Positions 1,025 through 44,583 of a DNA stretch of 64,000 nt are shown piece after piece. The stretch covers positions 2,976,001 through 3,040,000 of the forward strand of contig NZ_CP070968.1 of assembly GCF_017086445.1 (NCBI RefSeq), read 5' to 3'. Source of the stretch: Brevundimonas fontaquae. GTDB lineage: Bacteria > Pseudomonadota > Alphaproteobacteria > Caulobacterales > Caulobacteraceae. Positions within the stretch are counted from its first letter, which is position 1. Every line of letters begins with the position of its first letter. Both the position numbers and the translations under genes were made by a program. A model generated the notes under the pieces. That model ran no database searches. It saw only the letters and a list, made by a program, of their open reading frames with translations, and had not been told where the DNA came from.

Positions 1025-3118
1025 ATGTCCTTGCCCTCGCTTCGTCTCACCGCCTCGCTCGCCGCGCTCGGCGCCGCCACCGCCGTCCTGTCCGCGCCCG
1101 CGACCTCCGCCCGCGCCGACGAGGGCATGTGGACCTTCGACAACTTCCCCATCGCCACGGTGAACGAGAAGTACGGCACGAACATCGACCAAGCCTGGCT
1201 GGACCGCGTGCGCAACGCCGCCGTCCGCCTACAGGGCTGCTCGGCCTCGCTGGTGTCGAACGAAGGCCTGGTGCTGACCAACCACCACTGCGTCGTCTCG
1301 TGCGTGCAGGACCTGTCCACGGCTCAGAACGACTACGTCAAGAACGGCTGGATGCCCGCCACCCGTGAGGAAGAGAAGAAGTGCCCCGGCCAGACGGCCG
1401 AAATTCTGACGGACATCACTGACGTCACCGACCGCGTGACCGGCGCCGGCGCCGGTCTTGAGGGCGCCGCCTTCGTCCAGGCCCGCGCCGCCGAGATCGA
1501 CAAGATCCAGAAGGAGACCTGCGGCGACGACCAGAAGCTGACCTGCCAGGTCATCAGCTTCTACCGCGGCGGCCAGTACAAGCTGTACAAGTTCCGCAAG
1601 TATGACGACGTGCGCCTGGTCTTCGCGCCCGAGTTTCAGGCGGCTTTCTTCGGCGGCGACCCGGACAACTTCAACTTCCCGCGCTACGCTCTGGATGCCG
1701 GCTTCCTGCGCATCTACGAAGACGGCAAGCCGGTCGCCACGCCGAACCACCTGACCTGGAACGCCAATGCGCCCAAGGAAGGCGACGTCACCTTCGTCGC
1801 CGGCAACCCCGGCTCGACCCAGCGCCTGCTGACCGTGGCCCAGTTGGAGGCGCTGCGCGACCAGCAACTGCCCATCACCCTGATCCAGTCGTCGGAACTG
1901 CGCGGCCGTCTGCTGGAATATTCGACCACCGGCGAAGAGGCCAAGCGCGTCTCGGTCGATCCGATCTTCGGCCTGGAGAACAGCTTCAAGGTCTATTACG
2001 GCCAGCAGGGCGCCCTGACCGACCCGGTCTTCATGGCCACCAAGCGTCGTGAAGAGCAGGAGCTGCGCCAGCGCGTCGCCGCCGACCCGGCCCTGGCCCA
2101 ACGCATCGGCGATCCGTGGGCCGATCTGGAACGCGCCTCGACCGCCCAGCGCGACCTCTATCTGCCTTATCGCCAGCTGGAATCGGCGGCCGGTCAGCGC
2201 TCGTCGCTGTACAGCTACGCCAAGGCCATCGTCCGCGCCGCCAAGGAACGCGCCAAGCCCGTCGCTGAACGCCGCGCCGGCTATTCGGACGCCGACATCG
2301 CCTCGCTGGGCCGTCGCCTGGCGACCGAGACGCCGATCTCGAACGACCTGGAGAAGATCTATCTCGACTTCTGGCTGTCCAAGACCCGCGAATATCTGAC
2401 GGTCGACAATGCGAACGTGAAGGCGCTGCTGGGCAAGGAAAGCCCCGAGCAGATCGCGGAGCGTCTGGTCGACGGCACGCGTCTGGCCGACCCCGCCTTC
2501 CGCGCCCAGGCCCTGGCCATGACGCCGGAGCAACTGGCCGCCTCGGGCGATCCGCTGATCCAGTTCGTCCTGGCCAATGACGATGCGGCACAGGCCGTCC
2601 GCACCCAGTGGGAATCGGCCGTGTCCGGTCCGACCAGCCGCGCCGGCGAAAAGATCGCCCAAGCCCGGTTCGCGGTTTACGGCACCAATCTGTATCCCGA
2701 CGCGACCTTCTCCTTGCGCCTGTCCTACGGCCAGGTGAAGGGCTGGACCTATCGCGGCGTGACCGTCGAACCCTTCACCCAGATCGGCGGCCTTTATGAG
2801 CGCAACACCGGCGCTGAGCCCTTCAACGCGGCCGAGGACTGGCTGGCGGCCGAGGGCAAGGTCAACAAGTCGACCGTCTATGACTTCGTCTCGACCAACG
2901 ACATCATCGGCGGCAACTCGGGCTCGCCCGTGATCAACGCCAAGGGCGAAGTCATCGGCGCCGCCTTCGACGGCAACATCCACTCGCTGGGCGGCAGCTT
3001 CGGCTACGACCCCGAGCTGAACCGCACGGTGACGGTCTCGACCGCCGCCATCACCGAGGCCTTGCGCAACGTCTACAACCAGCCGCGCCTGCTGCGCGAA
3101 CTGGGCGTGCGTCGCTAA
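1025..3118 (+). CDS. S46 family dipeptidyl peptidase (DPP7-like), exported
   Basis: Serine exopeptidase expected to release N-terminal dipeptides in the periplasm. The chosen ATG gives 697 residues, normal for family S46, and a signal peptide (hydrophobic residues 8-25, cleavage near SARA-DEG); an in-frame upstream ATG at 986 would put charged residues before it. The chymotrypsin-like His lies in TNHHC (His88), a conserved acidic segment is GGDPDNFNFPR, and the nucleophile is Ser632 in GNSGSPV. In characterised S46 enzymes the residue 18 after the Ser (FDGN here, Gly650) shapes the S1 pocket: Gly goes with the DPP7 type, which prefers hydrophobic P1, and Arg with DPP11, which prefers acidic P1. 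A second S46 gene follows 179 bases downstream, so this is a tandem paralogue pair separated by a palindromic repeat. Exact substrate is inferred. Confidence 0.93.
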   Translation: MSLPSLRLTASLAALGAATAVLSAPATSARADEGMWTFDNFPIATVNEKYGTNIDQAWLDRVRNAAVRLQGCSASLVSNEGLVLTNHHCVVSCVQDLSTAQNDYVKNGWMPATREEEKKCPGQTAEILTDITDVTDRVTGAGAGLEGAAFVQARAAEIDKIQKETCGDDQKLTCQVISFYRGGQYKLYKFRKYDDVRLVFAPEFQAAFFGGDPDNFNFPRYALDAGFLRIYEDGKPVATPNHLTWNANAPKEGDVTFVAGNPGSTQRLLTVAQLEALRDQQLPITLIQSSELRGRLLEYSTTGEEAKRVSVDPIFGLENSFKVYYGQQGALTDPVFMATKRREEQELRQRVAADPALAQRIGDPWADLERASTAQRDLYLPYRQLESAAGQRSSLYSYAKAIVRAAKERAKPVAERRAGYSDADIASLGRRLATETPISNDLEKIYLDFWLSKTREYLTVDNANVKALLGKESPEQIAERLVDGTRLADPAFRAQALAMTPEQLAASGDPLIQFVLANDDAAQAVRTQWESAVSGPTSRAGEKIAQARFAVYGTNLYPDATFSLRLSYGQVKGWTYRGVTVEPFTQIGGLYERNTGAEPFNAAEDWLAAEGKVNKSTVYDFVSTNDIIGGNSGSPVINAKGEVIGAAFDGNIHSLGGSFGYDPELNRTVTVSTAAITEALRNVYNQPRLLRELGVRR

Positions 3119-3132
3119 GACGAAAACGAAGA

Positions 3133-3282
3133 AGTCTCCTCCCCGCTGCGCGGGGAGGGGTACCGCGAAGCGGTGGAGGGGCTCTTCACCACCGCATGAT
3201 CGCCTGTAAAGTGCTTAAGAGCCCCTCCGTCACGACGCTGAAGAAGCGCCGCGCCACCTCCCCGCAAGGCGGGGAGGAGACT
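3133..3282. repeat. Palindromic repeat element, subtype A, copy 1
   Basis: This 150 bp element fills the gap between the two S46 genes. Its ends are perfect 13-base inverted repeats, AGTCTCCTCCCCG at 3133-3145 and CGGGGAGGAGACT at 3270-3282. Inside lies a second nested inverted pair, GGAGGGGCTCTT at 3175-3186 and AAGAGCCCCTCC at 3217-3228, plus small hairpins at both ends. The same design occurs at 45713-45877, and a sister design at 53513-53692 and 59617-59770. It looks like a REPIN/MITE-type non-coding dispersed element. Its right end lies about 16 bases before the downstream start codon and contributes GGAGGAG. Confidence 0.85.
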
Positions 3283-3297
3283 TAAAGGACACCGCAC

Positions 3298-5376
3298 ATG
3301 CGCCCTCTTCTCCTCGCCTCCGCCGCCGTTCTCGCTTTCGCCGCCGCCAGCTCGGCCAGCGCCGAGGAAGGCATGTGGACCTACGACAACTTCCCCATCG
3401 CCCGCGCCAACCAGACGCTGGGGACCAATATCGATCAGGCCTTCCTGGATCGGGTGCGGCTGTCGTCGGTGAAGTTCGGCGGCTGTTCGGCGGGGGTGGT
3501 GTCAGGCCAGGGTCTGGTGATGACCAACAACCACTGCGTCGCCACCTGCGTAGCCAACCTGTCCACGCCGCAGCAGCAGTACGGCGAGACGGGCTTTACG
3601 CCCAAGACGCGCGAGGAAGAGCGCAAATGCCCCGGCGCCACGGCCGAGATCCTGACCGACATCTCCGATGTCACCGAGCGGATGCACAAGGCTGGCGAAG
3701 GGCTTGAGGGCCAGGCCTTCACCCAAGCGCGCGAGGCCGAGGCCGGGCGGATCGAGACCGAAGCCTGCGGCAACGAACCCAAGATCCGCTGCCAGGTCGT
3801 CAGCCTGTACCGGGGCGGCCAGTTCAAACTCTATAAGTTCCGCAAATACAGCGATGTGCGCCTGGCCTGGGCGCCGGAAGATCGCGCCGCGACCTTCGGC
3901 GGCGACCTGGACAACTTCTCCTTCCCCCGCTTCGCCATCGATGCGGCCTTCATCCGTCTGTACGAAGACGGCAAGCCAGTCGAGACGCCGGTCCACTTCG
4001 CCTGGAACGCCGACAAGCCGACCGAGGGCGAGGCCGTCTTCATCACCGGCAATCCCGGCGCGACCCAGCGCCTGCTGACGATGGATCAGCTGGCGACCAT
4101 CCGCGACGTGGTCCTGCCGCTGGATCAGTTGATCGCCTCGGAGCTGCGCGGCCGTCTGATCCGCTATTCCGAAGAGGGCGAGGACCAGGCCTTTATCGCC
4201 ATGGACCCGATCGTGGGCGTGGAGAACACCTACAAGCGCGGCCTGGGCCGTATGCGCGCCCTGACCGACGCCCAGTTCATCCAGGCCAAGGCGGCGGCCG
4301 AGGTCGACTTCATGCAACGCTACGCCGCCGCCAACGGCAATGGTCCCGATCCCTGGGGCGCGCTGGAAGCGGTCCAGCCCATCGCGCGTGAACTCTATGC
4401 GCCGACCGCCCTGCTGGAAGGCGGCACGGGCCTGGGGACCACCTCCGTCGCCGGCGGATCGCAGCTGTTCCAGTGGGCCAAGGCCATCGTGCGCGGCGCG
4501 CAGGAGCGGGCCAAGCCGTCGGACCAGCGTCTGGCCGAGTTCGCCGACAGCCGCCTGCCGGGCGTCGAATCCGGCCTGTTCGCCGAGCGGCCGACCTATC
4601 CCGAGCTGGAGCAGATCCGGCTGGAATGGTGGCTGTCCAAGACGCGCGAATGGCTGACGGTGGACAGCCCCTATGTTCGCACCCTGCTGGGCAAGGAAAG
4701 CCCCGAAGCGTTGTCGGCCCGTGTCGTCTCGGGCACCAAGCTGGCCGATCCAGCCGTGCGTCGCGCCCTGTGGACCGGCGGCCTGGCGACGGTTCAGGCG
4801 TCGGACGATCCGATGATCCAGTATGTACTGTCGATCGACGCGGACGCCCGCGCCGTTCGCACGGAATGGGAGAACAAGGTCAAGGCGCCGACCGACCGCG
4901 CGTCGGAACAGCTGGCGGCCGCTCGCTTCGCCGCCTATGGCGACGCCGTCTATCCCGACGCCACCGGCACCCTGCGCCTGACCTATGGCAAGGTCGAAGG
5001 CTCCGACGTACCGGGCCAGCGCTTCGGCGCCTTCACCACCTTCGCCGGCCTGTGGGACCGCGCCACCGGCGCCGAGCCGTTCAAGGTCGCGCCCAAGCTG
5101 ATGGCCGCCAAGGACCGGATCGATCCGAACGCGGTGATGGACATGGCCGTCTCGACCGACACCATCGGCGGTTCGTCCGGCTCGCCGGCGGTCAACGCCC
5201 GGGGCGAGATCATCGGGGCCAATTTCGACTCCACCGTCCTGACCCAGCGCAACGCATATGGCTATGACCGCAACACCAACCGCAGCGTGATCGTCACCAC
5301 CCAGGCCGTCACCGTGGCCCTGCGCGACGTCTATGGGATGGATCATCTGCTGACGGAGCTGGGCGTCAGCCGGTGA
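3298..5376 (+). CDS. S46 family dipeptidyl peptidase, second paralogue
   Basis: The 692-residue product has a clear Sec signal peptide (residues 1-22, ending ASSASA before EEGMW). It keeps the S46 hallmarks: His79 in TNNHC (the first His of the usual NHHC is Asn here), GGDLDNFSFPR, and Ser627 in GSSGSPA. It is colinear with the upstream paralogue throughout. The S1-pocket position 18 residues after the catalytic Ser reads FDST rather than FDGN, so Ser645 replaces the usual Gly. That suggests a P1 preference different from its neighbour, though not the Arg of DPP11. The start is preceded by AAAGGA about ten bases upstream. The gene ends in a GTGA overlap with a GNAT gene, so the two are probably co-transcribed. 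Periplasmic peptide catabolism is the likely role. Confidence 0.93.
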   Translation: MRPLLLASAAVLAFAAASSASAEEGMWTYDNFPIARANQTLGTNIDQAFLDRVRLSSVKFGGCSAGVVSGQGLVMTNNHCVATCVANLSTPQQQYGETGFTPKTREEERKCPGATAEILTDISDVTERMHKAGEGLEGQAFTQAREAEAGRIETEACGNEPKIRCQVVSLYRGGQFKLYKFRKYSDVRLAWAPEDRAATFGGDLDNFSFPRFAIDAAFIRLYEDGKPVETPVHFAWNADKPTEGEAVFITGNPGATQRLLTMDQLATIRDVVLPLDQLIASELRGRLIRYSEEGEDQAFIAMDPIVGVENTYKRGLGRMRALTDAQFIQAKAAAEVDFMQRYAAANGNGPDPWGALEAVQPIARELYAPTALLEGGTGLGTTSVAGGSQLFQWAKAIVRGAQERAKPSDQRLAEFADSRLPGVESGLFAERPTYPELEQIRLEWWLSKTREWLTVDSPYVRTLLGKESPEALSARVVSGTKLADPAVRRALWTGGLATVQASDDPMIQYVLSIDADARAVRTEWENKVKAPTDRASEQLAAARFAAYGDAVYPDATGTLRLTYGKVEGSDVPGQRFGAFTTFAGLWDRATGAEPFKVAPKLMAAKDRIDPNAVMDMAVSTDTIGGSSGSPAVNARGEIIGANFDSTVLTQRNAYGYDRNTNRSVIVTTQAVTVALRDVYGMDHLLTELGVSR

Positions 5377-35121: not shown

Positions 35122-36228
35122 TCAGGCCCAATGCATCTGCACCCGGTGCGCCGCCGCCCAGTGGATGGCGCGGATGGCGTCGATGACGGCCTCGGTCGCC
35201 GCACGCGTGCCCAGCGCGCCGCCTAGGTCAGCCGTCACGGCGCCGGCCGCCAGAACGGCGGCGACCGCGGCCTCGATGGAATCGGCCTCGTCCTCCAGCT
35301 TCAGGCTGTGACGCAGCAGCAGGGCCGCCGACAGGATGATCCCGACCGGATTGGCCAGATCCTGACCGGCGATGTCCGGCGCCGAGCCGTGAATCGGCTC
35401 GAACAGGCCCGGCCCGCCCGCGCCCAGCGACGCCGACGGCAACAGGCCGATGGAGCCACCCAGCACAGAAATCTCGTCCGACAGGATGTCGCCGAACATG
35501 TTTTCGGTCAGGATGACGTCGTATTCGCGTGGCTTGCGGATCAGGTGCATGGCCATGGAGTCCACCAGGGCGTGCTCCAGGGTGATGTCGGGAAACTCCT
35601 CGGCATGGATGCGGGTCACGACCTCGCGCCACAGACGGCTGGTCTCCATGACGTTGGCCTTGTCGACCGATGTCACCTTGCCGCGACGCTGTTGGGCGGT
35701 CTGGAAGGCGGCGCGGGCGACGCGCTCGATCTCCGGCACGGTGTATTCGCACAGGTCGGTGGCGCGATCGGCGGTGCGGGTCTTCTCACCGAAATAGACG
35801 CCGCCGGTCAGCTCGCGGAAGACGATCAGGTCGACGCCCTCGACGATCTCCTTCTTCAGCGGCGAGCGGTGCGCCAGCACCGGCGACACCTGCAACGGCC
35901 GCAGATTGGCGAACAGGCCCATCGCCTTGCGGATCGCCAACAACCCCTGTTCCGGACGCGCCTTGCCGCCATCCCATTTCGGCCCGCCGACGGCCCCCAG
36001 CAGCACGGCGTCAGAGGCGACGCACGCGGCGCGCGTGGCCTCGGGCAAGGGTTCGCCCGTCGCATCTATGGCCGCGCCACCGATCAGGTGTTCGGAGAAC
36101 TCGAAATGGTGACCATAGAAGTCGCCGATCACCCTCAGGATGTCGCGCGCGGCCCGTGTGACCTCCGGCCCGACGCCGTCGCCGGGCAGCAGGACGATGT
36201 TGTAAGTCTTGGTGGCGGCGGTGCTCAT
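35122..36228 (-). CDS. leuB: 3-isopropylmalate dehydrogenase
   Basis: Third leucine-pathway enzyme, oxidatively decarboxylating 3-isopropylmalate with NAD+ in the cytoplasm. The 368-residue length is normal. Visible motifs are [11 protein letters not shown] at the N-terminus, [13 protein letters not shown] (the substrate-loop RELTGG), the catalytic Lys in [10 protein letters not shown], and [16 protein letters not shown] near the C-terminus, which includes the NAD-binding region. The ATG overlaps the leuD stop by ATGA. It is the last gene of the ilvDCGM-leuACDB operon; no strong terminator was seen in the 200 bases that follow. Confidence 0.97.
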
Positions 36229-36812
36229 CGTACGGTCTCTTTCGATCGCTCGTAGGCTTCGATTTCAGGCATGTTTGATTGCAGCCAGCCCAGGGTGTCC
36301 ACCCCGTCCAGCAGGCATTGGCGGGCGAAGGATTCGACCCCGAACGGCACGGGTTCGGCATTGCCGCGCTGGATCTGATTGGCCTGGAGGTCAATCGTGA
36401 CCGGCTGGTCCGGCTGCGACGCCAGATCGTCCCAAACCGCCTGACTGACGACGATGGGCAGCAGGCCGTTTTTCAGCGCATTCGATGTAAAAATGTCAGC
36501 GATTTCGGTCGAGATCACCGCCCGGAACCCGTAGTCCAGCAGGGCCCAGGGCGCATGTTCGCGCGACGAACCGCAGGCGAAGTTCCGGCCCGCCAGCAGG
36601 ATGCGATGCTCGGCCGGATCGATCCGGTTCAGAATGGCCTCGGGCTTTTCCGAGCCGTCATCCTCGTAACGCCAGTCATAGAAGGCGGCCTTGCCTAGCC
36701 CTTCGCGCGTGGTCGTGGTCAGAAAGCGCGCCGGAATGATCTGGTCGGTGTCGATATTGGCCTGGCTGAGCGTGACCGTTTTCGATGTCAGCACCTGGAA
36801 GGGTTCAGACAT
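36225..36812 (-). CDS. leuD: 3-isopropylmalate dehydratase small subunit
   Basis: Small, swivelling-domain subunit (195 residues) of isopropylmalate isomerase, which works with LeuC to convert 2- to 3-isopropylmalate. Diagnostic segments are [29 protein letters not shown] and the bottom of the active site at [13 protein letters not shown]. It overlaps leuC by 8 bases upstream and leuB by ATGA downstream, so translational coupling keeps subunits balanced. Confidence 0.97.
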
Positions 36813-38217
36813 GCTCGACCTCCTTCAGATAGACGCGCGGATCGGTCAGCACCCCGGCGACCGCCGTCGCCGCCGCCGTCGCCGGGCTGGCCAGGATGGT
36901 ACGGGCGTCCTTGCCCTGACGGCCTTCGAAGTTGCGGTTCGACGTGGATACGGCCAGTTGGCCCGGCGCGACGAAATCACCGTTCATGGCGATGCACATG
37001 GAACAGCCGGGAATGCGCCATTCGGCCCCGGCGGCGATGAAGACTTCGTGCAGCCCCTCGGCCTCGGCGTCGCGACGCACGGCCTCGGACCCCGGCACCA
37101 CCAGCATGCGCAGACCCGGCTTGACCTTGCGGCCGCGCAGCACCTCGGCGGCGGCGCGCAGATCGGGCAGGCGTCCATTGGTGCAGGAGCCGATGAAGAC
37201 GACATCCACCGGCTGGCTGGTCGTCGCCTCCCCGGCCGTGAAACCCATATAGGCGATGGCCTTGCGGTCTGAGTCCGACTGGGGTTGCGGGACGGGCGAG
37301 CCGATGGGCGCGCCCGCATCCGGCGTCGTGCCCCAGGTCGCCATGGGCCGGATGGCGGCGCCGTCGATGGTCACTTCCTTATCGAAGACCGCGCCTGTAT
37401 CTGTCGCCAGTTTCAGCCATTCGGCCGTCGCCGCCTCATAGTCGGCGGGGACGTGCTTGCGTCCGCGCAGCCAGTCGATGGTCGTCTGGTCCGGGGCGAT
37501 CATGCCGGCCCGCGCCCCGGCTTCTATGGACATGTTGCACAGGGTCATCCGCCCTTCCATGTCCAGCGACCGCACCGCCTCGCCCGCGTATTCGACGACA
37601 TAGCCGGTGCCGCCGCCGAAACCGATGGCGGCGATGACCGCCAGGGCGACATCCTTGCCCGAAACGTCGGGCTGCAACTTTCCGTCCACCGTCACCCGCA
37701 TGGCCTTGGCCTTGCGCTGCAACAGGCATTGGGTCGCCAGCACGTGACCGACTTCCGAAGTGCCGATCCCGAAGGCCAGGGCGCCGAAGGCGCCATGAGT
37801 GGCGGTATGACTGTCGCCGCAGACCACCGTCATGCCCGGCTGGGTCAGGCCCAGCTCCGGCCCCATCACATGGACCACTCCGCGATCTTCCGATCCCCAT
37901 CCGGCCAGCGGCACGCCATGGGCGGCGCAGTTGCGCTCCAGCGTATGAACCTGAGCCTCGGCCTGGGCGGTGACATAGGGTTTCAGACCATTCAGCCCCG
38001 CGGGCAGGGTCGGGGTCGAATGGTCCAGGGTCGCATAAGTCCGGTCGGGACGGCGCACCTTCAGCCCGCGCGCCTCGATCTCGCTGAAGGCTTGGGGGCT
38101 GGTGACTTCGTGGACCAGATGCAGATCGATATACAGCACGCCCGGCGTATCGGCCGTTTCCGACCGCACGACGTGGGCGTCCCACACCTTGTCGAACAGG
38201 GTCTTGGGATCAGGCAT
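36805..38217 (-). CDS. leuC: 3-isopropylmalate dehydratase large subunit
   Basis: Aconitase-superfamily subunit of 470 residues carrying the [4Fe-4S] cluster. The three ligating cysteines are visible in FIGSCTNGR and IPGCSMC, and substrate-binding [14 protein letters not shown] is present. The N-terminus [12 protein letters not shown] is typical. It overlaps leuA by 8 bases and leuD by 8 bases, giving a tight operon. Confidence 0.97.
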
Positions 38218-39709: not shown

Positions 39710-41422
39710 TCAGGAGCCCTCCATCATTTCAGCATTGCTCTTGCCCGGCGGAACCAGCGGCCAGACGTTGTCTCGGGGGTCGATGACCACATGGGCCAGG
39801 CAGGGACCGTCGGCGGCCAGCAGGCGCTGGATGCCGTCGGACACCTGATCGCGGCGATCGATGCGGAAGGCCTCGATGCCGAAGGCTTCAGCGACCTTCA
39901 CGAAGTCCGGGTTGTCGGACAGGTCGATCTCGGAATAGTTCTCGGCGAAGAACAGCTCCTGCCACTGGCGCACCAGGCCCAGCGAGGAATTGTCGATCAG
40001 CACGATCTTCAACGGGATGCCGTAACGCTTCAGCGTCGCCAGCTCCTGGATGTTCATCATGAAGCCGCCGTCGCCGGCGATGGTGACGACCGTCGCGGAC
40101 GGATCGGCCAGCTTGGCCCCGATGCCGGCGGGCAGGCCAAAGCCCATCGCGCCCAGACCGCCCGAGGTGATGTGGGCTTCCGGCTTGGCGAAGCGACAGT
40201 GCATGGCCGCCCACATCTGATGCTGGCCCACGTCGCAGGCGGCAATGAAGTCATCGCCCGCCGCTTCCGAGATTTCCTTCAGCAGGGCGGGCGCATAGAC
40301 CCCCTCGCCCGGCGCGTCATAGCGGTGAGCGCCAGCTTTGGCCGCACCAGCGCAGTCGTCGGCCCAGGCCTGGATGTTCAGCGCCGCGCCCGACCGCATC
40401 CGCGCCGTCAGCGCCTCAACGCCTTCGCGCAGCTCGCCAACAACGGCGACATTGGCGCTGCGCAGCTTGCCGACTTCCGAGGCGTCGATGTCGAAATGAA
40501 CGATGCGGGCATTGGGCGCGAATTCAGCCAGCTTGCCCGTCGCGCGGTCGTCGAACCGGGCGCCGACGACGATCAGCAGATCGCTGTCCTGCACCGCATG
40601 GTTGGCGGCGCGCGTGCCGTGCATGCCCAGCATGCCCAGCATGCCCGGTGCATCGGTCGGGATGGTGCCCAAGGCGTTCAGGGTCGAGACCTGGGGAATG
40701 CCGGTCGCGGCGACGAAGGCGCGCAGGGCTCCTGTCGCGCCGCCGATCTTCACCCCGCCGCCGATGTAGACCAACGGCTTCTTGGCCGCCCGGATCGCCG
40801 CTTCGGCGGCGGCGATGGCGTCATGATCGACGCGGGGCGCCTCGTTGGGAATGGAGAAACCGTAGTCGTCCGCAGTCGTCTCGAACTGCACATCCTTGGG
40901 CAGATCGACCAGAACCGGACCGGGGCGGCCCGAGCGAGCGATATGGAAGGCTTCCTCGATCGCGGCGGGAACCTCGGCGGCCGAGCGGACCAGGATCGAA
41001 TGTTTCACGATGGGCAGGGTGACGCCCAGGATGTCGATCTCCTGAAAGGCGTCAGTGCCCATCAGGCCTTGGGCGACATTGCCGGTGATGCAGACGATCG
41101 GCACCGAATCCATCATCGCATTGGCGATGCCGGTGACCAGATTGGTGGCGCCGGGGCCGGACGTCGCCATGCAGACGCCGACCTTGCCGCTCTTCCTGGC
41201 ATAGGCGTCGGCCGAGAAGGCCGCGCCCTGCTCATGGCGGACCAGGATGTGTTTCAGCTTGGAGCCGGCCAGGGCGTCATAGACCGGCATGATGGCGCCG
41301 CCCGGATAGCCGAACACCACCTCCACCCCCAGCCGCTCCAGGGTGGAGACCAGCAGGCGCGCGCCCGACTGGGGAGCGGTCTCGGCTGAGGGTTTGAAGG
41401 CGGCGGCGGTCATCAGGATCAT
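39710..41422 (-). CDS. ilvG: Acetolactate synthase large subunit (IlvG/IlvB family)
   Basis: ThDP-dependent catalytic subunit (570 residues), condensing two pyruvates, or pyruvate plus 2-oxobutyrate, as the first common step of valine/isoleucine/leucine synthesis. The ThDP-activating Glu lies in ILVRHEQGAAFSADAYAR, the FAD/quinone-like region in VPIVCITGNV, and the metal-ThDP motif starts GDGGFMMN and ends IDNSSLGLVRQWQ. The last motif (DNxxLGxVRQWQ) and the 83-residue partner resemble E. coli IlvG/IlvM (AHAS II); ilvB is an equally valid generic name. It lies 19 bases after ilvC. Confidence 0.93.
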   Translation of the reverse strand: MILMTAAAFKPSAETAPQSGARLLVSTLERLGVEVVFGYPGGAIMPVYDALAGSKLKHILVRHEQGAAFSADAYARKSGKVGVCMATSGPGATNLVTGIANAMMDSVPIVCITGNVAQGLMGTDAFQEIDILGVTLPIVKHSILVRSAAEVPAAIEEAFHIARSGRPGPVLVDLPKDVQFETTADDYGFSIPNEAPRVDHDAIAAAEAAIRAAKKPLVYIGGGVKIGGATGALRAFVAATGIPQVSTLNALGTIPTDAPGMLGMLGMHGTRAANHAVQDSDLLIVVGARFDDRATGKLAEFAPNARIVHFDIDASEVGKLRSANVAVVGELREGVEALTARMRSGAALNIQAWADDCAGAAKAGAHRYDAPGEGVYAPALLKEISEAAGDDFIAACDVGQHQMWAAMHCRFAKPEAHITSGGLGAMGFGLPAGIGAKLADPSATVVTIAGDGGFMMNIQELATLKRYGIPLKIVLIDNSSLGLVRQWQELFFAENYSEIDLSDNPDFVKVAEAFGIEAFRIDRRDQVSDGIQRLLAADGPCLAHVVIDPRDNVWPLVPPGKSNAEMMEGS

Positions 41423-41441: not shown

Positions 41442-42455
41442 TCAGGCCGCTTCGGCCTTGGGCGTGTTCAGCCAGGCCATGCGTTCGCGCAGGCGGGCGC
41501 CGACCTGTTCGATCTGGCTTTCGCGGTCCGCCTTCAGCCAAGCCTCGTATTGCGGCTTGCCGGCCTCGTTCTCGGCGATCCAGTTGCGCGCGAAGGTGCC
41601 GTCCTGGATCTCTTCCAGAATGGTCTTCATGCGGGCCTTGGTCTCTTCGGTCACGACGCGCGGGCCGCTGGCGACGGCGCCGTATTTGGCCGTCTCGGAG
41701 ATGAAGTGGTGCATCTTGGAGATGCCGCCTTCGTAGAACAGGTCCACGATCAGCTTCAGCTCGTGCAGGCATTCGAAATAGGCGATCTCGGGCTGGTAGC
41801 CGGCCTCGACCAGGGTGTTGAAGCCCTGGATGACCAGCTCCTTGGCGCCGCCGCACAGGACCGCCTGTTCGCCGAACAGATCGGTCTCGGTCTCTTCGCG
41901 GAAGGTGGTTTCCAGCAGGCCGCCGGTCGCGCCGCCGTTGCCCTTGGCGTAACCCATGGCCCGGTCGCGGGCCTTGCCGGTGACGTCCTTCTCGACGGCG
42001 AACAGCGAAGGCACGCCGCGCCCGCGCTGGAACTCGCGGCGGACCAGATCGCCCGGTCCCTTGGGCGCGACCAGGATCACGTCCATGTCCTCACGCGGCG
42101 TGATGCGCTCGTAGATGATCGAGAAGCCGTGGGCGAACAGCAGCGCCGAGCCTTCCTTGGCGTTCGGCTCGATAATGTCGCGATAGACGTCGCCCTGAAC
42201 CATGTCGGGCGTCAGGATGGCGATGATGTCGGCGCCCTTGACGGCCTCGGCCGGCTCTGCGGTCGGGACGCCGTCGGCGGTGGCGTGTTTCCAGCCCGTG
42301 CCGCCGTGTCGGACGCCGGCGACCACGTCATGGCCGCTGTCCTTCAGGTTCTGCGCGTGGGCGCGACCCTGCGAGCCGTAGCCGATGATGGCGATGCGCT
42401 GGCCGGCGATCGCGCCCGGCTTGATGTCTTCGTTGGTGTAGATGGTGATGGCCAT
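41442..42455 (-). CDS. ilvC: Ketol-acid reductoisomerase (NADP+), class I
   Basis: The 337-residue short (class I) enzyme converts acetolactate to dihydroxyisovalerate with Mg2+ and NADPH. The Rossmann motif is [20 protein letters not shown], followed by the coenzyme-specificity loop [16 protein letters not shown] and the Mg-binding [17 protein letters not shown] and ETAKYGA segments are intact. It lies three bases after ilvD and is part of the attenuated operon. Confidence 0.97.
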
Positions 42456-42458
42456 GGG

Positions 42459-44198
42459 TCAGGCGTCCTGAGCAGCGTTGGTTTTGTGGCTTGCCGGGAC
42501 TTGGGCCGGCGGCGGGTTGGGGATGGTGACGGCGCCCTGGGCGGCCGAGGCGACCGAGGCGCGGTATTTGGCGAAGACACCTCGCGCCGGGCGGACTACG
42601 TGGGGCGTAAAGCCCGCCCGGCGCGTCGCCAGATCGACGTTGACGTCGATGCGGCGGTTGGTGACGTCGATGGTGATGCGGTCACCATCGCGAATGAGGG
42701 CGATCGGGCCGCCCACGGCGGCTTCCGGCGAGACGTGGCCGGCGACGAAGCCGTAGCTGGCGCCCGAGAACCGGCCGTCGGTCAGCAGGGCGACGTTGTC
42801 GATCTTGCGACCCTTCAGGGCGGCGGTGACCTGCAGCATCTCGCGCATGCCCGGACCGCCCTTGGGCCCTTCGTAGCGAATGATGATCACGTCGCCTTGG
42901 CCGACCGATCCATCCTGAACGGCGTGGAAGGCGTCCTCCTCTGAGTCGAAGACGCAGGCTGGGCCTTCGAACGTGTCGACCTTGTGGCCCGTCAGCTTGA
43001 TGACCGCGCCTTCCGGGGCGACATCGCCATAGATGACGGCGAAGCTGCCGCGATCCATCACAGGGGCGTCGAAGGTGGTCACCACCACCTGGCCCGGGGT
43101 CTCCTCGGCCTCGGCGGCCTCGGCAAACAGGCTGCGGCCGGTGACGGTGGGGGTGTTCACGATCTTGCCGGCCTCGGCCATCCGCTGGGTGACCAGACGC
43201 GTGCCGCCGGCGGCGAACAGATGCGAGGCCAGGAAGCGGCCGCCCGGCTTCAGATCGCAGATGACCGGCGCCTCAACGCAGGCCTGATGGCAGTCCTCGA
43301 CGCCGAACTCGACGCCGGCCTCCGCCGCGATCGCCGTCAGGTGCATGACCGCATTGGTCGACCCGCCCGAGGCCGAGACGGCGACGGCGGCGTTCTTCAG
43401 GCTGGCGCGGGTGATGTATTTGCGGGCTGTGTCGCCGGAGAAGACGCGTTCGACGATCAGGCGGCCGCAACGCTCGCCCTCGGCGGCCTTATTCGGATCG
43501 ACGGCGGGCACATCGTTGGCGCCCATGGGCGAGATGCCCATGACCGACAGGGCCATGGCCATGGTGTTGGCCGTGAACTGACCGCCACACGCCCCGGCGC
43601 CGGGGCAGACGGCCTGTTCGACCGCCTTCAGCCCCTCGTCGTCCAGGGCGCCTGCCGAATGAGCGCCGATGGCCTCGAACACCTCCTGGACCGAGACCTC
43701 CTTCGAGCCAATCACGCCGGGCATGATGGTGCCGCCGTAATAGACCAGGCCGGGGATATCCATCCGCGCCAAGGCCATGGCCGCCGCCGGGATCGTCTTG
43801 TCGCAGCCGACGATGCAGACCACGCCGTCCAGTTGGTGGCCTTCGATGGCCAGTTCGATCGAGTCGGCGACGACCTCGCGACTGATCAGCGAGGCCTTCA
43901 TGCCCGCCGTGCCCATCGAGATGCCGTCCGTGACGACGATGGTGTTGAAATCGACCGGATAGCCGCCTGCCGCGATGATGCCGGCGCGCACGTCCTTGGC
44001 CAGACGGTCCAGGTGCATGTTGCACGGCGTGACCGTCGACCAGGTGTTGACGATGCCGATCATCGGCTTGTCGAAGTCGGCGTCCTGCATGCCGGCGGCG
44101 CGCAGATACGACCGCGCGGCGGCCCGGTTCGGGCCAGCCGTCACCGCCGCGCTGCGCGCGTTGGGCTTTCTGGGCTGAGAGGTAGAATTTTGCGTCAT
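42459..44198 (-). CDS. ilvD: Dihydroxy-acid dehydratase
   Basis: Iron-sulfur dehydratase (579 residues) producing the 2-oxo acids for valine and isoleucine. ATG 44198 is used; the frame extends to 44228, but that runs into the attenuator terminator. The three cluster cysteines are visible in TPCNMHL, GCDKTIPAAAMA and CPGAGACGGQFTANTM. The size is that of the shorter, plant/bacterial type. It is the first structural gene after the attenuator and shows only a weak ribosome-binding site. Confidence 0.96.
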   Translation of the reverse strand: MTQNSTSQPRKPNARSAAVTAGPNRAAARSYLRAAGMQDADFDKPMIGIVNTWSTVTPCNMHLDRLAKDVRAGIIAAGGYPVDFNTIVVTDGISMGTAGMKASLISREVVADSIELAIEGHQLDGVVCIVGCDKTIPAAAMALARMDIPGLVYYGGTIMPGVIGSKEVSVQEVFEAIGAHSAGALDDEGLKAVEQAVCPGAGACGGQFTANTMAMALSVMGISPMGANDVPAVDPNKAAEGERCGRLIVERVFSGDTARKYITRASLKNAAVAVSASGGSTNAVMHLTAIAAEAGVEFGVEDCHQACVEAPVICDLKPGGRFLASHLFAAGGTRLVTQRMAEAGKIVNTPTVTGRSLFAEAAEAEETPGQVVVTTFDAPVMDRGSFAVIYGDVAPEGAVIKLTGHKVDTFEGPACVFDSEEDAFHAVQDGSVGQGDVIIIRYEGPKGGPGMREMLQVTAALKGRKIDNVALLTDGRFSGASYGFVAGHVSPEAAVGGPIALIRDGDRITIDVTNRRIDVNVDLATRRAGFTPHVVRPARGVFAKYRASVASAAQGAVTIPNPPPAQVPASHKTNAAQDA

Positions 44199-44227: not shown

Positions 44228-44259
44228 CTAAAAACCCCGCTTCCTTTCGGAGGCGGGGT
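44228..44259 (-). terminator. Attenuator terminator of the ilv-leu operon
   Basis: On the minus strand the hairpin CCCCGCCTCC...GGAAGCGGGG (arms at plus 44253-44258 and 44235-44240, extended by GGA/TCC pairs) is followed directly by TTTTT. It lies between the leader peptide and ilvD, 30 bases before the ilvD start, so it must be read through for operon expression. A leader segment at 44305-44313 can pair with 44253-44261 at eight of nine positions, which would break this hairpin. Confidence 0.88.
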
Positions 44260-44289
44260 GGTGCGAGGCGATCCTGAGTGTGTCTAAGG

Positions 44290-44442
44290 TCAGGTCGCGT
44301 GCATCCACGCCGCTTGCGTAAGCAGGCCGAGAAGTACGAGGGTAATGAGGAATACGGGGCTTTCCAGGCCGACCGGCGCGCGAACTGCTGCGACCGCCTC
44401 GGCGGTGCGTCCCTTCGTCATGTCGCGCGTCATCGTGGCCAC
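44290..44442 (-). CDS. ilv-leu operon leader peptide (attenuator)
   Basis: A 50-residue frame lies between the promoter region and the attenuator terminator. GTG 44442 is preceded by AGGGAG six bases upstream; ATG 44433 and ATG 44421 are alternatives. Residues run ...GLESPVFLITLVLLGLLTQA and end AAWMHAT. In the twelve codons at 44355-44320 (VFLITLVLLGLL) nine are Val, Leu or Ile, just what a multivalent branched-chain leader needs. The stop is 31 bases before the terminator hairpin. When charged Leu/Val/Ile tRNA is scarce, the ribosome should stall there and free the antiterminator, which begins right after the run (codons for AAW). The product itself probably has no other function. Confidence 0.85.
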   Translation of the reverse strand: MATMTRDMTKGRTAEAVAAVRAPVGLESPVFLITLVLLGLLTQAAWMHAT

Positions 44443-44583
44443 GGGTGGCTCCCTGTTCTGACGCCAAGAAACCATACCGCCCGGACCGGCACAAGGCCTG
44501 TCGCAAAAATTTTGCTCAAGGGGCGTCTCAACGCCTCTCAAAGGGTGTTTCTTGCCGCAACACTGAACGGAGGGCTCGGGAAG

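Follow-up and report, generated by a model that had tools for sequence, protein, structure and literature searches.

A Predicted Attenuator Ahead of ilvD

We analyzed a 64,000-nucleotide stretch of the Brevundimonas fontaquae genome (NZ_CP070968.1, positions 2,976,001 to 3,040,000; hereafter, the window) and found a 213-base leader, 44442–44230 on the minus strand, that we predict, with a probability of about 0.9, to be a ribosome-mediated transcription attenuator of ilvDCGM-leuACDB responding to a shortage of charged Leu, Val, and Ile tRNA. The ilvD-ilvC-ilvG-ilvM-leuA-leuC-leuD-leuB genes are consecutive on the minus strand, from 44198 to 35122. The features of the locus are as follows.

44466..44494, minus strand, promoter-like block, TTGTGC (44494–44489), 17 nt, and TTTCTT (44471–44466); tentative, from aligned upstream regions by eye
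44449..44453, minus strand, Shine-Dalgarno GGGAG of the leader, six nt ahead of its GTG (sequence)
44290..44442, minus strand, leader peptide ORF of 50 codons, MATMTRDMTKGRTAEAVAAVRAPVGLESPVFLITLVLLGLLTQAAWMHAT, from GTG 44442 to TGA 44292–44290 (sequence, conserved ORF)
44320..44355, minus strand, control-codon run, 9 of 12 codons Ile/Leu/Val, 8 of those 9 rare synonyms
44310..44325, minus strand, 1:2 hairpin CTGCTT/AAGCGG, 44325–44320 with 44315–44310, predicted to sequester region 2 if free of ribosomes
44301..44313, minus strand, region 2, antiterminator 5' arm (GCGGCGTGGATGC), within the leader ORF
44268..44298, minus strand, conserved 9-pair hairpin within the antiterminator (GCGACCTGA/TCAGGATCGC), containing the leader stop codon
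44253..44264, minus strand, region 3, antiterminator 3' arm (GCACCACCCCGC), overlapping the terminator 5' arm
44230..44259, minus strand, intrinsic terminator, hairpin 44259–44234 and TTTTT (fold)
42459..44198, minus strand, ilvD (NF002068 match)
41442..42455, minus strand, ilvC
39710..41422, minus strand, ilvG, the sole acetolactate synthase large subunit found in the genome
39457..39708, minus strand, ilvM-like ACT subunit, 83 aa
38210..39460, minus strand, leuA, 416 aa, lacking the regulatory domain LeuA_dimer
36805..38217, minus strand, leuC
36225..36812, minus strand, leuD
35122..36228, minus strand, leuB

The first-pass annotation of this DNA had described a 50-codon leader frame with a ribosome-binding site and nine Val/Leu/Ile codons in twelve at 44355–44320; the frame was confirmed (GGGAG, GTG 44442, TGA 44290), as was the run, base for base. 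Codons 30–41 (44355–44320) read GTA TTC CTC ATT ACC CTC GTA CTT CTC GGC CTG CTT. Judged by its sequence, ribosome-binding site, and conservation, the leader is a translatable ORF. Such a combination is rare by chance: a scan of both window strands covered 772 short ORF frames, of which 23 contained at least 7 Ile/Leu/Val codons in 12, and 4 of the 23 also had a hairpin and T-run, required within 110 nt; 9 of 12 was reached by this leader only among the four.

The most likely start of ilvD is ATG 44198, ~31 nt past the T-run, in agreement with the distance of some 30 bases noted earlier, with an in-frame GTG at 44228 as the alternative. The encoded IlvD is 99% identical to that of B. huaxiensis. 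The opposite neighbor of the leader, a GAPDH gene from 44696 on the plus strand, is divergent, and thus no upstream gene is seen whose transcription the leader terminator could end.

Mutually Exclusive Pairings within the Leader

The pairing of GCGGCGTGG (44313–44305) with CCACCCCGC (44261–44253) at 8 of 9 positions, on which the first-pass annotation built its antiterminator, was confirmed and proved to be longer, joining 44313–44301 with 44264–44253 by 11 pairs at −16.0 kcal/mol. Its 3' partner does contain the 5' arm of the terminator, whose hairpin (energy −16.9 for 44258–44235, −18.6 with one pair more) is followed by TTTTT at 44234–44230. The hairpin enclosed by the antiterminator pairs 44298–44290 with 44277–44268, and the 1:2 hairpin, overlooked in the earlier annotation, connects region 2 with the last codons of the run. 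Read from the sequence, neighboring ones among the pairings 1:2, 2:3, and 3:4 are mutually exclusive; the claim that leader, antiterminator, and terminator are all visible and exclude one another thus holds, with 2:3 excluding the terminator 3:4.

Under the proposed mechanism, a ribosome supplied with plentiful amino acids would cross the run and reach the stop codon, where region 2 would be either covered or locked in 1:2, leaving region 3 free and allowing the terminator 3:4 to form. Under scarcity, the ribosome would instead halt within the run, over region 1; region 2 would then pair with region 3 while region 4 has yet to be made, and with 2:3 formed, the polymerase would read through into ilvD.

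On folding, the segment 44362–44228 had a z score of −3.8, the longer 44450–44228 one of −1.2 only, and fold energy by itself is weaker evidence than the rest. When the whole leader is folded to minimum energy, the terminator 3' arm pairs with AAGCCCCGUAUUCC, where the run begins (44366–44350), and this fold lowers the equilibrium terminator probability to 0.01–0.31 with the ribosome at codons 18–24. We set this partner aside because other Brevundimonas clades, as judged by eye, have a different sequence at the run start.

The stop-codon hairpin, ACCTGA...CAGGATCG (44298–44268), is conserved into Hyphomonadaceae, and its conservation perhaps exceeds the needs of the antiterminator model. A conserved hairpin between regions 2 and 3 is what a metabolite-binding riboswitch, acting in place of a translated leader, might display. 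We consider a riboswitch hardly credible, since the ORF and the pairings explain most of the conserved features and a scan of the window with Rfam covariance models placed no family over threshold, the two matches at E 1.7 and 3.1 being chance ones.

Conservation in Related Genomes

To follow the attenuator across species, we took loci with IlvD at least 57% identical and its start within the locus (79 loci) together with 9 loci of a Caulobacteraceae genus labeled g14, giving 88; 3 loci without an IlvD start by this criterion (L031, L049, and L106) and 30 loci below 57% identity were left out. A leader was counted as conserved if it had at least 7 Ile/Leu/Val codons in 12 and a terminator. Leader and terminator were found in 78 of the 88 loci examined. 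They precede ilvD in all 45 loci with IlvD more than 80% identical, and among the more distant ones in 6 of 7 at 70–75% and 20 of 27 at 57–64% (26 of 34 together), the last set including Parvularcula, Robiginitomaculum, Maricaulis, Lysobacter, and Arenimonas records. The 10 failing loci comprise seven with the ORF and no qualifying hairpin (L030, L037, L051, L054, L071, L121, and L122) and three without a leader (L065, L066, and L073).

In genus g14 (L114–L122), whose IlvG is 65–69% identical, leader and terminator were found in 7 of 9 loci, ~2 kb ahead of ilvG, and the Ile/Leu/Val leader ends in (V)RPM..EW or similar. The gene after the leader is, in the loci inspected, a stand-alone IlvD C-terminal domain, followed by an ilvC identified by eye. 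This free-standing domain (PF24877) lies at 1304–1906 on the minus strand of L114 and 3019–3654 on the plus strand of L119 (E-values 6e-35 and 3e-28), with the N-terminal catalytic domain absent, and was seen by eye in L120; the L114 copy is 43% identical to the window IlvD over 143 aa. It can be read either as a remnant or as a small protein in its own right that has been retained under the attenuator. A further locus, L010, is titled as a Bordetella metagenome-assembled genome and has the same kind of leader with an IlvD 89% identical to that of the window; the title is likely a binning or labeling error.

Pairing was assessed on an alignment of 44 distinct segments with more than 70% identity. 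The 1:2 and 3:4 helices pair in 88.3% of the alignment cells, versus 41–49% for slid versions, and 30 cells have changed on both sides, compared with 11.0 in shuffles (0 of 500 as high) and 0–5 in slid versions. On a stricter count, double changes are confined to 4 pairs, a number that 97 of 500 shuffles also attain. Exchanges occur chiefly between CG and UA at the inner 1:2 pair (CG in 18, UA in 14, and UG in 5 of the 44 sequences) and between CG and AU at the outer terminator pair.

For 2:3, the share of cells able to pair is 84.8% (slid versions, 32–47%), and in one clade with region 3 shorter by one C, pairing is kept through a bulge where others have a mismatch. Within this close alignment, 2:3 showed no covariation beyond chance, its score being reached by 158 of 500 shuffles. 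Among 24 representatives drawn from 64 distinct region 2/region 3 pairs, native 2:3 duplexes averaged −16.1 kcal/mol versus −14.8 kcal/mol for permuted partners (p 0.003). Of what the first-pass annotation expected from relatives, conservation of the codon run and of the pairing was thus borne out, and covariation of 2:3 in the close set was not.

The region upstream of the leader bears on another explanation. In C. crescentus, ilvD has a LysR-type regulator, IlvR, and an IlvR- or Lrp-like DNA-binding protein might mainly control the Brevundimonas operon as well, with the terminator a constitutive damper and the leader of minor effect. Besides the C. crescentus precedent, an upstream block resembling AAAATTTTTGC appears by eye to be common to close relatives, which would suit such a regulator. 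A scan upstream of the leader found no consensus sigma-70 promoter; a loose version of the promoter-like pattern is present in 22 of 40 distinct Brevundimonas upstream regions. Control mainly by a DNA-binding protein is nevertheless improbable, as it leaves unexplained the control codons, the complementarity of region 2, and the conservation of both over several families.

Ribosome Position and Terminator Pre-emption

We modeled the switch by placing a ribosome at each codon and computing how probable it is that, with the loop transcribed and the 3' arm still to come, the terminator 5' arm is already engaged with an upstream partner. In the window leader, this sequestration is 0.78–0.79 at codons 30–34 and 0.58–0.71 at codons 35–39, then falls to 0.46 at codon 40, 0.20 at codon 41, and 0.02 at codon 42, with 0.35 at the stop. 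The values are also high, 0.60–0.84, with the ribosome before the run at codons 1–29, and the curve therefore marks the end of the effect, not its beginning.

Five E. coli leaders served as controls. Sequestration in the run was 0.90 for thrL and 0.62 for trpL, both with a minimum of 0 after it; 0.67 for leuL, with a minimum of 0, a rebound to 0.42, and 0.01 at the stop; 0.75 for ilvL, with a minimum of 0.01 and 0.49 at one codon between; and 0.69 for hisL, with a minimum of 0.22 and 0.68 at the stop. The computed effect of a stalled ribosome thus resembles that of the thr, leu, ilv, trp, and his leaders, in line with the likeness to enterobacterial ilvGMEDA attenuation drawn in the first-pass annotation.

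The same computation was applied to 73 distinct leaders among the 78 loci with leader and terminator, L046 being kept though its ORF stops before region 2. Sequestration averaged 0.78 with the ribosome in the run, 0.06 at the subsequent minimum, and 0.31 at the stop codon, and the mean difference between midrun and stop was ~0.50 versus 0.10 for shuffled spacers. For the window alone, 16 of 100 shuffles reached the observed difference between run and stop, and no more than 5 of 100 did so for 34 of the 73 leaders; because shuffles of a single leader are weak, the case for a position effect rests on the set of 73, whose members are related.

The equilibrium probability of the terminator was rejected as a test of the switch. 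It is 0.80–0.98 with the ribosome in the window run, meaning that the terminator wins, and in each of the five E. coli controls it stays at 0.93–1.0 wherever the ribosome is placed. With equilibrium values near 1 in the controls, pre-emption in time is the meaningful measure, and the switch is proposed to discriminate by kinetic pre-emption of the terminator 5' arm.

Codon Signature of the Control Run

The control codons differ sharply from those of the genes they precede. In 36 distinct Brevundimonas runs, the 197 Leu codons comprise 90 CTC, 65 CTT, 41 CTG, and 1 CTA; CTC and CTT make up 79% of Leu codons in the runs and 3% in ilvD, which uses CTG at 94%. GTA accounts for 55 of 73 Val codons (75%) versus 1% in ilvD, and ATT for 39 of 47 Ile codons (83%) versus 7%. 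In the window run, 8 of the 9 control codons are synonyms used at 2–7% in eleven nearby genes. The ratio of rare to common synonyms is 163:154 in the 36 runs and 250:3997 in the ilvD genes of the same loci, a conservative contrast given that the "common" codons include CTC, rare in Brevundimonas.

The bias is local. When each codon is scored by its frequency in ilvD, Ile/Leu/Val codons in the run average 0.187 and the remaining run codons 0.565 (ilvD itself, 0.555), while Ile/Leu/Val in the 25 codons preceding the run have 0.625 (0.737 in ilvD). Past the run, both classes are low, 0.269 for Ile/Leu/Val (67 codons, some of them from the run's tail) and 0.348 for the others (246 codons), and region 2 constrains the sequence there. 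As the other codons in the run are ordinary, the in-run bias is confined to control codons and does not reflect local base composition. An explanation of the rare codons by low local GC was likewise rejected, since codons ending in G or C number 104 of 109 outside Ile/Leu/Val and 154 of 317 within Ile/Leu/Val of the same runs. In 26 distinct distant leaders (57–75% identity), the bias has the same direction and is weaker (0.226 in the run, 0.307 before it, and 0.376 in ilvD), with ATT at 28 of 34 Ile, CTG at 14 of 132 Leu, and GTA at 30 of 90 Val codons.

A run such as VFLITLVLLGLL is hydrophobic like a membrane helix, and the ORF could encode a small membrane peptide with a transmembrane segment, next to which the hairpin is incidental. 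We judge this very unlikely on several grounds. The 58 distinct runs average 9.3 Ile/Leu/Val per 12 residues and 1.1 Ala/Phe/Gly/Met/Trp/Cys, whereas 82 hydrophobic 12-mers from the AmtB-like and MFS transporters of the window (two proteins) average 5.5 Ile/Leu/Val and none reaches 8. The leader length and N terminus are variable, and Caulobacter-type leaders have runs of 3–5 residues only. A membrane peptide also gives no explanation for in-run rare codons confined to Ile/Leu/Val.

In other Caulobacteraceae genera, a short leader and terminator were found in 22 of the 24 regions that precede the acetolactate synthase gene. The genes are of the ilvB type, 44–48% identical to IlvG, and the scan accepted any run of at least 3 Ile/Leu/Val, so that the hits in L204 and L206 are probably not the true leaders. 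These leaders use CTC or CTT at 35 of 37 Leu, GTA at 28 of 29 Val, and ATT at 7 and ATC at 12 of 20 Ile codons; six of the downstream genes use CTG at 85%, GTA at <1%, and ATC at 98%.

Among 48 tRNA matches in the genome, there is one tRNA-Leu gene each for GAG, UAG, UAA, CAA, and CAG, one tRNA-Val gene each for CAC, GAC, and UAC, and two tRNA-Ile genes for GAU. Standard decoding assigns CTC and CTT to Leu-GAG and GTA to Val-UAC, and isoacceptor charging can therefore account for the choice of Leu and Val codons. ATT and ATC are both read by Ile-GAU, and the choice of ATT needs another reason. Slower wobble decoding may lie behind it; the ilvB-type leaders share ATT in part only. Because the control codons are mostly rare in the operon genes, the leader should react early in starvation.

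LeuA and Branched-Chain Gene Content

The 416-aa LeuA matched the HMGL-like and HCS_D2 profiles, and no LeuA_dimer match was found in it. This domain carries leucine feedback in other LeuA proteins, and with a LeuA lacking it, a large part of leucine control may fall to the attenuator; the missing domain is consistent with the predominance of Leu among the control codons. A search of the window's genome did not find PF08502, which was present in all 14 control genomes, and one full-length LeuA was found in the genome, a second match being weak (E 1e-4). In a draw of 199 Caulobacteraceae genomes, PF08502 was found in 148, including 5 of the 40 Brevundimonas (G107, G122, G177, G192, and G198); it was not found in the other 35, the window's genome among them.

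We also observed no match to acetolactate synthase at E 1e-120 in 16 of the 40 Brevundimonas genomes, which are 99–100% complete; members of the 16 that appeared in the ilvC comparison had only an ilvC paralog of ~45% identity or none. These bacteria may be auxotrophs for branched-chain amino acids. Outside the window, the same genome has another ketol-acid reductoisomerase-like gene with 46% identity to ilvC (G000:C1:2143850-2144809), and such a gene also occurs in Brevundimonas without the operon. 

Discussion

The control proposed here is of a well-known kind, with an unusually clear codon signature. The first-pass annotation called such leaders poorly described in Caulobacterales; this is only partly fair, given that attenuation of ilvBN in C. 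crescentus (Tarleton et al. 1994) is described and illustrated in PMC4117421. None of the matches listed in our literature searches, whose scope mostly excluded subscription papers, named a branched-chain attenuator in Brevundimonas.

The leader shares with E. coli ilvGMEDA (ilvL), leuL, and thrL a leader ORF with control codons for the operon products, a U-run terminator, and a similar computed pre-emption curve, and is likened to them by architecture and curve; it differs in that ilvDCGM-leuACDB stand under one leader and that region 2 lies inside the leader ORF. With the C. crescentus ilvBN attenuator it has in common the family Caulobacteraceae and the amino acids. It is set apart by position, preceding ilvD and not ilvBN, and by its features: the ilvB-type leaders of the Caulobacteraceae relatives, which we take as the ilvBN type, have the same GTA and CTT/CTC control codons but precede another operon, with a run of 3–5 residues, another terminator sequence, and Ile mostly as ATC (12 of 20). 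The Lysobacter and Arenimonas loci (L051, L054, L059, and L071) also have an Ile/Leu/Val leader directly before IlvD, there 57–58% identical, and differ in a VVVVLIT-type run and in the terminator, which qualified in one of the four (L059).

That control codons can be biased is already known; what is new here is the codon choice of the control run. Selective-charging theory (Elf et al. 2003; PMC1183508) predicts a biased choice among synonymous control codons. According to PMC1183508, the Leu control codon of the Salmonella leu leader is CTA, and replacing CTA by CTG in the leu leader lowered sensitivity; the Leu codons of the Brevundimonas leader are instead CTC and CTT. The theory concerns isoacceptors, whereas the preference of ATT over ATC in Brevundimonas falls within one tRNA. 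A joint reading, which we put forward only tentatively, would be that Caulobacteraceae attenuators sense codon-specific decoding speed, with slow wobble and not only selective isoacceptor charging setting the trigger, and that the Brevundimonas leader took over leucine control from a LeuA that had lost its feedback domain.

The leader would place a complete predicted attenuator over the sole acetolactate synthase and the sole full-length 2-isopropylmalate synthase found in the genome. The heavy use of CTG, GTC, and ATC in the operon genes makes the contrast with the control codons extreme, and through this contrast, theories of synonym choice in attenuators become directly testable by recoding a dozen codons.
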